64,000 bases of DNA from Geothrix terrae (GTDB taxonomy: Bacteria > Acidobacteriota > Holophagae > Holophagales > Holophagaceae), in contig NZ_JAKZLA010000003.1 in assembly GCF_022808775.1 (NCBI RefSeq), positions 310,001 to 374,000 on the forward strand. Reading direction: 5' to 3'. The notes beneath the pieces were generated by a model. That model had not been told where the DNA came from. It worked only from the letters and a program-made list of their open reading frames with translations, and ran no database searches. Within the stretch, counting starts at the first letter, position 1. Each line of letters opens with the position of its first letter. Positions 7,988 to 11,409 of the stretch are shown one piece after another. The position numbers and the translations under genes are program-made.

Positions 7988-8053
7988 GCGGCACCTCACC
8001 TTCCAGTTTATCCATCCAGGGGCCCTCCGGAGGATCGGCCCTATCCTGGATCC

Positions 8054-9526
8054 ATGCGAGCATTCCGACCCGTTCCCCGCGAGCTCCAGGCCCGGCTCCG
8101 GGCCGCCTACCCCGATGCCCGCTGCGCCCTCGACCACCGGGACCCCTTCCAGCTGGTGGTGGCCACCATCCTCAGCGCCCAGTGCACGGACGCCCGGGTG
8201 AACCTCACCACGCCGGCCCTCTTCGCCCGCTTCCCCGACGCGGCCAGCCTGGCGGCGGCCCGCACGGAGGAGCTGGAGGGCCTCATCAAGTCCACGGGCT
8301 TCTTCCGCAACAAGGCGAAGAACCTCATCGGACTCGGGCAGGCCCTGATGGCGAAGCACGGCGGCCGGGTGCCCTCGGATCCCACCGAACTGGGCGCCCT
8401 GCCCGGCGTCGGGCAGAAGACCGCCAACGTGGTGCTGGCCAATGCCTTCGGCGTGCCAGCCCTGGCCGTGGATACCCACATCTTCCGGGTGGCACGGCGC
8501 CTGGGCCTGTCGAAGGCCACGACCCCCGAGAAGGTGGAAGCGGACCTCTGCCGCCTCTTCCCCCGGGAGGACTGGATCGAGCTGCACCACCAGCTCATCT
8601 TCCACGGGCGCCGCACCTGCGATGCCCGCCGCCCCGCCTGCGCCGCCTGCCCCCTGCTGGACCTCTGCCCCACGGGCCTGGGGCAGATCAAGGATCCGCA
8701 CCTGGGGGTGAAGCTGACCGCAGTTCCCAGGGGGGACACGCCTCGCCCTGCGGGGGCCCGGGGGAACCTCGCGAGCGAAGCAAGCAGGCGGTCTCCCCGG
8801 AGCGTGTCAGGACCGCAGCGCATCGTCAGCCTGGTGCCCTCCGTCACGGAGCTGTTGGTCCAGTGGGGCCTGGCGGCGCAGCTGGTGGGGCGCACGCGGT
8901 ACTGCATCGAGCCGAGGTGGATCCGCAACACGGTGCCCGCCGTGGGCGGCACCAAGAACCCGGATCTGGACTGCATCCGGGACCTGGCCCCGGACCTGGT
9001 GATCCTTGAGCGGGACGAGAACCCGAAGGAGGTCGCCGAGGCCCTCACGGCCCTGGGCATCCCCTGGCTGGCCTTGGAGATCCGGACCGTGAAGGACTGC
9101 GTGCGCGCCCTGCGCCAGCTGGGAGAGCGGCTCGGCGCCGTCGAGGCCGCCGAGGCCCGCGCCTCAGCGCTGGAGACCACCCTGAAGGGGCGCCGCCGCA
9201 GGGGTCTCCGCACCCTCGCCCTCATCTGGAAGGACCCCTGGATGAGTGCCGGGCCCGACACCTACGTGGGCGATCTCCTCCGGTCGGGGGGTCTGGTGCC
9301 CCTCGGTCCGGACCGCTACCCCTCGCTGACCGACGACGATCTGGCGGCCCTCGCGCCCGAGCTGATCCTCCTCCCCACCGAGCCCTACCACTTCAACCGC
9401 CGCCATCAGGCGGAGCTGCAGAAGCGTTTCCCGGGCGCGGAGGTGCGCGTGGTGGATGGCCAGGCCCTCACCTGGTACCTCAGCCGGACGGAGCAGGGCC
9501 TCGACCTGGTGCAGAGCTTCCGATAG
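8054..9526 (+). CDS. nth: Endonuclease III fused to BtuF/TroA-type metal- or cobalamin-receptor domain
   Basis: One continuous 490-residue frame. Residues 1-212 are endonuclease III, a base-excision-repair DNA glycosylase/AP lyase: helix-hairpin-helix with LPGVGQKTA, catalytic Lys122, Asp140 in VDTHIF, and the iron-sulphur cysteines Cys189, 196, 199 and 205 with C-x6-C-x2-C-x5-C spacing. Residues about 254-490 are a periplasmic-binding-type domain (RIVSLVPSVTELL, GRTRYC, VGGTKNPDLD, LAPDLVILERDEN), usually a separate protein. No signal peptide precedes it, so the second domain would be cytosolic. The linker (about 213-253) is low-complexity. An in-frame GTG at 8804 could start the second domain separately. 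Confidence 0.85.
   Translation: MRAFRPVPRELQARLRAAYPDARCALDHRDPFQLVVATILSAQCTDARVNLTTPALFARFPDAASLAAARTEELEGLIKSTGFFRNKAKNLIGLGQALMAKHGGRVPSDPTELGALPGVGQKTANVVLANAFGVPALAVDTHIFRVARRLGLSKATTPEKVEADLCRLFPREDWIELHHQLIFHGRRTCDARRPACAACPLLDLCPTGLGQIKDPHLGVKLTAVPRGDTPRPAGARGNLASEASRRSPRSVSGPQRIVSLVPSVTELLVQWGLAAQLVGRTRYCIEPRWIRNTVPAVGGTKNPDLDCIRDLAPDLVILERDENPKEVAEALTALGIPWLALEIRTVKDCVRALRQLGERLGAVEAAEARASALETTLKGRRRRGLRTLALIWKDPWMSAGPDTYVGDLLRSGGLVPLGPDRYPSLTDDDLAALAPELILLPTEPYHFNRRHQAELQKRFPGAEVRVVDGQALTWYLSRTEQGLDLVQSFR
8716..8818. repeat. Repeat-like insertion forming the linker of the Nth fusion
   Basis: The linker DNA is bounded by direct repeats GACCGCAG at 8716-8723 and 8811-8818, and inside these by inverted GACACGC (8735-8741) and GCGTGTC (8802-8808). 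The intervening sequence, rich in GCGAGCGAAGCAAGC-type words, reads as Arg/Ser/Pro-rich filler. This looks like a small intergenic repeat that landed in or between genes and left the frame open. Confidence 0.45.
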
Positions 9527-9558: not shown

Positions 9559-10314
9559 GTGTCGCGTCCTCCGCTGAGCAGTCTTCTCCTGGCCCTCTCC
9601 TGCCTCTCCCTGGGCGCCCAGGGCGTGTTCAACAACGCCAACAGCCCTAGCGACCCCATCTGCCCGAGGGTCATGCAGGAGAAGACCGAGCTGAACTACA
9701 AGAGCCAGTACGGCCGCAACGGGGCGGACGCCTCCGCGGTCCGCTACTCCCAGCGGGGGGATCAGTTCTTCCCTCCGGCGGAACGGAAGGATGTCTCCGC
9801 CTTCGCCGCCTATGACGAGAAGAACAAGGGCATCTCCATCGCCAGCCTCAAGGGCAAGGTGGTGCTGGTGGGCCTCTGGAGCAAGAACTGCGACCCCTCC
9901 GCCAAGATGCTCCAGGAATTCGCCAGCCTTTATCCCAAGAAGGGCCAGTACGGCTTCGAGATCCTGGCGGTCAATTTCGATGAGAACCAGCAGGATAGCG
10001 GCATCGAGGGCGGCTGGCGGGCCATCCACAAGTTCATGAGCCGGAACCGCCAGTTCTTCGAGAGCAGCCACATGCCCGTCTTCACGCCGGGCCTCGGCAA
10101 AGAGGGCCCCTCCAACTTCATGGACACGGTCTACTCCGTGCCCGTGTTGTTCGTCGTGGACCGCCAGGGGAAGCTGGCCGAACTCCACATCGGCTACCAG
10201 GACGGCTTCGTGGGCCAGGCCGTGATGCGGGCCCTGCGGGAGCGGGTTGCTCCCCCAGCTCCAACTCCGGCCCCCGCCGTGCCGGCAGAGCCGGGTAAGC
10301 CCACTCAGCCGTGA
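9559..10314 (+). CDS. Exported redoxin/TlpA-like protein lacking a CxxC pair
   Basis: A 251-residue protein starting at GTG, with a signal peptide to about residue 20 (LLLALSCLSLGA) and a thioredoxin-like domain from about 90 (SLKGKVVLVGLWSKNC ... FEILAVNFDEN ... YSVPVLFVVDRQGKL). Where TlpA-type proteins have WCxxC, this one has N110-C111-D-P-S114, so the second cysteine is missing. That argues for a one-cysteine peroxiredoxin-like or a non-redox role. The tail is Pro/Ala-rich. It precedes a canonical TlpA protein by 54 nt, in the same direction. Confidence 0.7.
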   Translation: MSRPPLSSLLLALSCLSLGAQGVFNNANSPSDPICPRVMQEKTELNYKSQYGRNGADASAVRYSQRGDQFFPPAERKDVSAFAAYDEKNKGISIASLKGKVVLVGLWSKNCDPSAKMLQEFASLYPKKGQYGFEILAVNFDENQQDSGIEGGWRAIHKFMSRNRQFFESSHMPVFTPGLGKEGPSNFMDTVYSVPVLFVVDRQGKLAELHIGYQDGFVGQAVMRALRERVAPPAPTPAPAVPAEPGKPTQP

Positions 10315-10368: not shown

Positions 10369-11409
10369 ATGCCGCTGCCCCTGTTCTCCCTGATGATGGC
10401 GCTGCCCGCCCTCCAGGCACCCGCGCCCGTCCATGGAACCCAGGCCATCCTGGACGCCGCCAAGGCGAAAGCCAAGGCCGTGATGGAAGCGCGCGCCGCC
10501 TTCATGAAAGCCGGCGGCAACACCAAGGACTTCAAAGGCGACTGCGCCAAGGAGCTGGCGGACCTGGATGCGCGCCTGGCGGTCGAAAAAGCCCCGGAGC
10601 TGCGCCAGGCCATGCTGGTGAGCAAGCTGTTCCACCTCCAGCTGGCCAAGGCCGAGCCCACCTCGACCTTCCTGGCCCAGCTGAAGCAGGAGGTCCCGCC
10701 CACGGCCGCTGCCTGGAGCCTGGACCCGGGGCTGCTCACCGCCCGCGCCGAGGCCGATCCCAAGGGCTGGGACGCCTACGTGGCCGAGGCCCGGACGAAG
10801 CACGCCGACGCCGACCTCCGCCGCATCCTGCTCTTCGAGCACTTCTGGGAGCGCCTGGACGCCAAGGACGAAGCCGCCTGGAAGCCCGCCTTCGACGGCC
10901 TCCAGAGGGACTTCCCGGGCAGCCGCCAAGCCACGCTGGCCAAAGAGATCCTCGAAGCCGAGCTGAAGACCGGCCTCGGCCGGCCCGCCCCCGCCTTCAG
11001 CCTCAAGGCCCTGGGCGACCCGAAGACCACCTACACGCTGGCTACGTTCAAGGGCAAGTACCTGCTCATCGACTTCTGGGCCACCTGGTGCCCGCCCTGC
11101 CGCGCCGAGATGCCCTCCATGCACGCCGCCTGGGCCAGGTTCAAGACCAAGCCCTTCGAGATCCTCTCGCTCTCCTTCGACCGCCGCGTGGAGCACATCG
11201 CGCCCTTCCGGAAGCAGGCCGCCACACCCATGCCCTGGAAACACGCCTTCGTCGAGGGCGGGTTCCAGAACCCCGTGGCCGACGCCTACGGTGTGAAGGG
11301 CATCCCCAAGCCCCTGCTCATCGGACCCGATGGCAGGATCGTGGCCAGCGGCGCCCAGCTCCGCGGCGAGAACCTGGAGAAGACCCTGGAGACGTTCCTC
11401 GGGAAGTGA
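10369..11409 (+). CDS. TlpA-family thiol-disulfide oxidoreductase with helical N-terminal domain
   Basis: A 346-residue protein. A short hydrophobic N-terminus (about 1-18) suggests export. Residues 25-200 are an Ala/Lys/Glu-rich helical region of unknown role. Residues about 203-345 are a TlpA/thioredoxin domain (GRPAPAFSLKAL, YLLIDFWATW, active site Cys241-Pro-Pro-Cys244, cis-Pro region VKGIPKPLLIGPDGRIV). Such proteins reduce disulphides or haem-binding cysteines in the periplasm. The nearby DsbD could supply electrons; that link is inference. Confidence 0.85.
   Translation: MPLPLFSLMMALPALQAPAPVHGTQAILDAAKAKAKAVMEARAAFMKAGGNTKDFKGDCAKELADLDARLAVEKAPELRQAMLVSKLFHLQLAKAEPTSTFLAQLKQEVPPTAAAWSLDPGLLTARAEADPKGWDAYVAEARTKHADADLRRILLFEHFWERLDAKDEAAWKPAFDGLQRDFPGSRQATLAKEILEAELKTGLGRPAPAFSLKALGDPKTTYTLATFKGKYLLIDFWATWCPPCRAEMPSMHAAWARFKTKPFEILSLSFDRRVEHIAPFRKQAATPMPWKHAFVEGGFQNPVADAYGVKGIPKPLLIGPDGRIVASGAQLRGENLEKTLETFLGK

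Follow-up and report, generated by a model that had tools for sequence, protein, structure and literature searches.

An endonuclease III joined in one reading frame to a TroA-like receptor domain in the Holophagaceae

Endonuclease III (Nth) is a DNA-repair enzyme recognised by a catalytic Lys and Asp together with a [4Fe-4S] motif of the form Cys-X6-Cys-X2-Cys-X5-Cys. BtuF is a periplasmic receptor whose cobalamin pocket is built from aromatic residues, which we take to be Tyr50, Trp66, Trp85, Phe168 and Trp196. REP elements are short dispersed hairpins associated with RAYT-type transposases. Rickettsia palindromic elements (RPEs) are palindromic repeats that lie in frame within protein-coding genes, according to a review (PMC10969869). 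The gene described below encodes an Nth and a receptor of the BtuF/TroA type as one frame, with a palindromic repeat (element A) in the linker between them. A search of the literature found neither such an Nth-receptor fusion nor element A in print.

The window, a 64,000-nucleotide stretch of the Geothrix terrae genome, encodes a protein of 490 amino acids on its forward strand, from an ATG at 8054 to a TAG ending at 9526, and the translation contains no internal stop. As the preliminary description had read it, this single frame holds a complete Nth followed by a BtuF/TroA-type domain without a signal peptide, and both halves score above their profile cut-offs. Residues 10-196 belong to the endonuclease III family TIGR01083 (259.7 bits against a curated cut-off of 211.7). 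Residues 256-475 belong to the TroA_like family NF038402, a “helical backbone metal receptor” (157.8 bits against a cut-off of 30, spanning model positions 1-217 of 219). The Pfam domains, HhH-GPD and Peripla_BP_2, are concordant. The Nth half (residues 1-216, 8054-8701) ends in a family-specific DPH tail and is followed by an interdomain linker of 39 codons (8702-8818) and the receptor half (residues 256-490, 8819-9523), all on the forward strand. AlphaFold predicts a disordered linker between two folded domains, with pLDDT below 50 for residues 225-250. The pTM is 0.53, and given this value and the disorder of the linker, the relative orientation of the domains in the model is untrustworthy. 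A Foldseek ranking places EndoIII 1orp at the top, followed by BtuF and haem binders.

The Nth half carries the catalytic pair and the four-Cys cluster of endonuclease III. Lys122 (8417), Asp140 (8471) and Cys189, Cys196, Cys199 and Cys205 (8618, 8639, 8648 and 8666), which had all been named beforehand, are in place and are invariant across 38 aligned fusions taken from 60 fused loci. The best Foldseek match of this half is 1orp_A, an EndoIII-DNA complex, at 48% identity. Exactly one Nth above the cut-off is encoded by each of the 14 genomes tested, and it is the fusion in all 11 that are fused. The DPH motif (residues 214-216) stands at the Nth tail, right before the linker, and is also present in the family's eight unfused Nth proteins (loci L069-L076).

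By sequence profile, the best relatives of known structure for the receptor half are BtuF proteins, which by fold are among the best, and haem and siderophore binders match as well. However, the receptor half reaches only 36.8 bits with the BtuF equivalog NF002894, for which the cut-off is 234. In the profile consensus, Tyr50 alone is retained from the aromatic pocket, with Trp66 replaced by Thr, Trp85 by Asn, Phe168 by Met and Trp196 by Tyr. The Thr that replaces Trp66 is invariant among the receptor domains, so BtuF-style cobalamin binding is doubtful even though Tyr50 is kept. Moreover, the receptor is the C-terminal domain of a repair enzyme rather than a periplasmic protein exported by a signal peptide. 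Residues invariant in 18 fused and solo members include, among others, Cys29, Pro32, GGTK 43-46, Glu67-Asn68, Trp137 and Trp219 (domain numbering).

Stand-alone TroA_like relatives without a signal occur in Bacteroidota, Balneolaceae, Proteobacteria, Chloroflexota and Acidobacteriota. The best 80 loci from at least 591 pattern matches in a genome scan comprise 18 fusions and 62 stand-alone receptors. None of 62 stand-alone relatives has a hydrophobic 12-mer ahead of the domain, many being too short there to contain one, and the lack of a hydrophobic N-terminal segment suggests that the stand-alone relatives are probably cytosolic. An nth gene was found at 18 of 108 receptor loci, all 18 of them fusions; none of the other 90, the stand-alone loci, has an nth in the flanking DNA, which reached up to about 5 kb and less where a contig ended. 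The neighbours of the stand-alone receptors are mostly lineage-specific. The largest neighbour cluster that is plausibly genuine is of a PAS histidine-kinase type (14 loci); clusters of 31 and 27 loci were discarded because they are shadows of the receptor gene on its opposite strand. As raw counts, a gene of the methylmalonyl-CoA-mutase type with a B12-binding domain lies near 6 of the 90 stand-alone receptors, and 4 of the 90 have an ABC-transporter ATPase nearby; these neighbours hint that the ligand is a corrinoid or a chelate. In L182, L191, L197 and L207, long upstream frames were considered as other receptor fusions and set aside as apparent chance frames, judged by eye. The mutase-type gene is found in the flanks of L156, L166, L182, L185, L207 and L208, and L156 has MeaB and B12-binding domains.

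We surveyed 77 genomes of the order, all from one family, with 47 in the window's genus and 30 in other genera. The fusion occurs as one frame in 60 of the 77 and in seven genera: in 42 of the 47 genomes of the window's genus and in 18 of the 30 others (genera g16, g19, g20, g21, g22 and g23). The remaining five genomes of the genus have contig-edge pieces only, or no match. Among the other genera, eight genomes (g17, g18, g24, g25 and genome G086 of g21) carry nth but show no match to the receptor at E <= 1e-25, and four genomes gave no match at all. A whole-genome search with NF038402 (E <= 1e-20) in the unfused G073, G074 and G075 returned nothing. Separate nth and receptor genes at this locus, which the preliminary description had proposed to look for in relatives, did not appear: none of the 77 genomes has both domains out of frame. 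Named records of the fusion come from Geothrix (e.g. G. fuzhouensis and G. rubra) and from MAGs labelled Geothrix, Holophagaceae or Acidobacteria.

The fusion gene is preceded by a divergent FolD-type gene (THF dehydrogenase/cyclohydrolase, PF00763 and PF02882; 7127-7987, reverse strand) that is syntenic in most of the fused loci examined. Downstream on the forward strand lie a thioredoxin/AhpC-like gene (9559-10314, PF00578), with synteny in part of the loci, and a second thioredoxin-like gene (10369-11409, PF00578 and PF13905), which is also found directly 3' of the unfused nth in g17. By eye, an upstream listing of fused loci displays a conserved -10-like box, TATCCT, just 5' of the ATG (8042-8056, forward strand), and nearly all genus members listed have a TATCCTGG or TATGCTGA box a few bases 5' of the ATG. 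A -10-like box so near the ATG points to a leaderless mRNA.

When the receptor halves of 17 sampled fusions were placed in a tree, they fell into a single clade (support 100/99), in which the small-genome genus g16 branches first. The fused genera do not form one clade in an rpoB tree covering 23 of 28 genomes (p-AU 0.0004); unfused genera are nested among them and at least four changes are needed. The Nth tree was poorly resolved, with long branches oddly placed and the outgroup rows L049 and L052 left out, and because it did not settle the history, the question of gain versus loss rests on the rpoB and receptor trees. From these two trees, the history was probably one old fusion, early in the Holophagaceae, after which the receptor half was lost several times. 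The fused gene may, alternatively, have been transferred horizontally. The folD-nth arrangement persists in unfused g18 and the nth-thioredoxin arrangement in unfused g17, so that both probably represent the same locus minus the receptor half. At L069 (G086, g21), Nth runs into a tail that resembles a linker and ends at a stop, with no receptor half, and the genus mates G083 and G084 are fused; it looks like a case of recent receptor loss.

The linker set comprises all 60 fused loci, which were recognised by their open frame. Linker length ranges from 27 to 186 nt (9-62 codons), and both length and sequence are hypervariable between species, in frame in all 60. There are no in-frame stops in any of the 60, and stops are present in the +1 frame of 43 and the +2 frame of 21, counts that derive from linkers related by descent and hence not from 60 independent tests. 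We compared codon positions in 25 equal-length pairs from nine hand-chosen groups; because the pairs share history, the p-value obtained is too optimistic. Differences at first, second and third positions number 160/174/322 in the linkers, 470/391/1488 in the receptor half and 220/211/1182 in the Nth half. Two element-free groups show a strong third-position excess in their linkers (12/7/62 and 8/6/31); several small groups show a slight one, and linkers that carry element A show almost none (20/22/25). Because all 60 linkers are open and in frame and third positions are favoured, the junction appears to be translated, and from this comparative evidence we regard it as solid that Nth and the receptor domain are made as one protein.

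The preliminary description had drawn attention to a direct repeat, GACCGCAG, at 8716 and 8811 and to an inverted pair, GACACGC at 8735 and GCGTGTC at 8802. All are present, but they do not stand out from chance: when the 131-nt linker region was shuffled 5000 times at the mononucleotide level, an 8-mer direct repeat arose in 1356 cases and a 7-mer inverted repeat in 4237. The terminal inverted repeats as first drawn were rejected, 7-mer inverted repeats being at chance level in the shuffles. The linker does bear a real dispersed repeat, as had been supposed, but it is a different palindrome from the one named. This is element A, a 59-nt stretch at 8752-8810 (forward strand) with the core GGGGGAACCTCGCGAGCGAAGCAAGCAGGCGGTCTCCCC. 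Looking for the linker sequence elsewhere in the genome, as the earlier description had advised, proved productive: a composite query has 10 other own-genome matches (E <= 0.01), six of them intergenic and four touching an ORF or ORF end by a GC3 criterion. The family is bipartite, a variable stem being followed by GGGGGGACATCGCGAGCGAAGCGAGCAGGCGGTCCCCCC, and it is present in 46 of the 47 genus genomes (E <= 0.001), in a few weakly. Seven own-genome stretches matched no family in Rfam. A RAYT-type transposase of the same genome was considered as the source of element A and rejected, since Y1_Tnp (PF01797) has no match there; it was found in 5 of 14 control genomes. Element A is commonest in G018 (29 matches) and G027 (27), and some neighbouring copies lie 99 bases apart in a tandem-like fashion.

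Only five of the 60 linkers contain element A (the window, L039, L040, L077 and L080); the other 55, spanning all seven genera, have no match. The copy is longer in L039, L040 and L080, and the window linker is 21 codons shorter, which is consistent with the window's copy having been cut back by an in-frame deletion. Element B is a different insert with two hairpins and matches 10 of the 60 linkers. It was discarded as a dispersed element: it occurs in only 9 of 47 genomes, in eight of them within the linker and in one as a 31-nt stub elsewhere. The linkers of L041 and L055 contain large in-frame nested palindromes with RNA folding energies of about -96 and -84 kcal/mol, and degenerate CAGTCYTCAGTC-type runs were seen by eye in the linkers of several species. 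Also by eye, L033 and L035 have an apparent element-A-type variant hairpin 70 bases upstream of nth (cf. L216 and L217), and both ends of this locus may therefore have received such a hairpin.

The nearest relative compared, L039 (receptor half 93% identical), carries element A. L010 (Nth 94% and receptor 91% identical) and L011-L013 have the fusion but not the element, and the same holds for all fused genera outside the window's genus, which shows that element A did not make the fusion. A target-site duplication was also considered and rejected: the 3' GACCGCAG lies within Gly-Pro-Gln-Arg codons and is found in the insert-less L011 as well, and the ends in L039, L040 and L080 are unmatched. 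Comparison across loci shows one translated frame, conservation of that frame and fusion in the absence of the insert.

The reading we favour, and consider well supported when its parts are taken jointly, is that of a two-domain single protein with one early Holophagaceae origin and later losses, a tolerant linker and a tether without rigid allostery. The product would be the sole endonuclease III over the family cut-off, tied by a disordered tether to a cytosolic receptor of TroA/BtuF fold. A single fusion early in the family would have been followed by loss of the receptor half in several lineages. Selection would hold the frame of the linker and much less its sequence, which would make the linker a tolerant site for palindromic DNA. 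Palindromes (element A in some Geothrix, others elsewhere) would sit in the linker and decay in three-base units. The Nth half would perform ordinary base-excision repair, and the receptor half would bind a small metal chelate or a corrinoid/tetrapyrrole-like ligand in the cytosol. The fusion may serve simple tethering, co-production or local delivery; a long, variable tether speaks for these roles and against allostery through a rigid interface, and our best guess is a flexible tether with no allosteric effect. Long, variable, disordered linkers and the apparent repeated loss of the receptor also argue against tight coupling; that every fused copy has stayed in frame speaks against pure accident.

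A competing view, to which we give appreciable weight but somewhat less than an even chance, is that the halves are functionally unrelated: adjacent genes became fused, were hard to separate later, and selection acts on each half alone. It would fit the absence of nth from the flanks of all 90 stand-alone loci and the apparently repeated loss of the receptor half. Yet a stop and an internal start could undo such a fusion, and all 60 two-domain loci stay one frame; the element-free linkers, moreover, bear the mark of protein-level constraint.

Ligand-regulated repair, in which the receptor senses an iron chelate, haem or corrinoid and alters endonuclease activity, DNA scanning or Fe-S loading, is a tentative proposal that we think rather improbable. 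Seven genera have kept the fusion, many positions of the receptor are invariant by alignment, Nth bears a [4Fe-4S] cluster motif and the receptor fold resembles BtuF, haem and siderophore binders, all of which would suit a sensor. Against it stand linkers of 9 to 62 residues that are disordered and weakly conserved in sequence, lineages in which the receptor half was apparently lost and Nth retained, and stand-alone receptors without nth nearby. Similarly doubtful is the larger claim that the only endonuclease III of the family is receptor-tethered and reports a metal-chelate or corrinoid ligand to repair or to the Fe-S cluster, with the linker as a recurrent landing site for in-frame palindromes.

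The preliminary description had also allowed for two proteins by way of the GTG at 8804; on this reading, an Nth would end within the linker and the receptor would be initiated at that codon. The GTG exists, 5 codons ahead of the receptor domain, but it has no Shine-Dalgarno match under the pattern used, and 26 of the 60 fused loci lack a start codon within 25 codons of the domain. Because of these missing starts and the coding-like substitutions of the linkers (weak in repeat carriers), a separate receptor protein from this codon is unlikely, and we assign the two-protein reading very little weight. The original suggestion, in which insertion of a small repeat between two genes took out the stop and gave rise to the chimera, can point to the dispersed repeat in the linker but is refuted by L010-L013, which are fused without it, by the 55 linkers of all seven genera that lack a match and by the chance level of the repeats named, and we consider it virtually untenable.

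At this locus a DNA-repair enzyme of near-universal occurrence is joined to a member of a widespread family of cytosolic receptors; we found no function assigned to that family, and the fusion offers a handle on what it binds. The 60 linkers, from 9 to 62 residues long and with or without palindromic inserts, form a natural series in which repeat DNA may be followed as it turns into protein outside Rickettsia.

Set beside known systems, the fusion shares with endonuclease III (TIGR01083) a score over the cut-off, the catalytic Lys and Asp, the four cluster Cys and the 1orp/2abk fold, and differs in its C-terminal DPH tail and in the linker and second domain that follow. The receptor half shares with TroA_like (NF038402) a score over the cut-off along the whole model, whereas the 90 stand-alone loci examined are unfused to Nth and the fusion was encountered in this family alone. 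It shares fold and sequence profile with BtuF; BtuF, however, is periplasmic, and the receptor half is signal-less, falls below the NF002894 cut-off and has four of five pocket aromatics replaced. Element A resembles REP elements with RAYT in forming short dispersed hairpins in many genomes of one genus, but differs from them in that its own genome lacks a Y1_Tnp match. The RPEs belong to an unrelated host, and six of the ten other element A copies in the own genome are intergenic; the likeness drawn here is one of arrangement. In that arrangement (PMC10969869), element A agrees with the RPEs, being a dispersed palindrome that lies in frame inside an ORF in 5 of 60 linkers.
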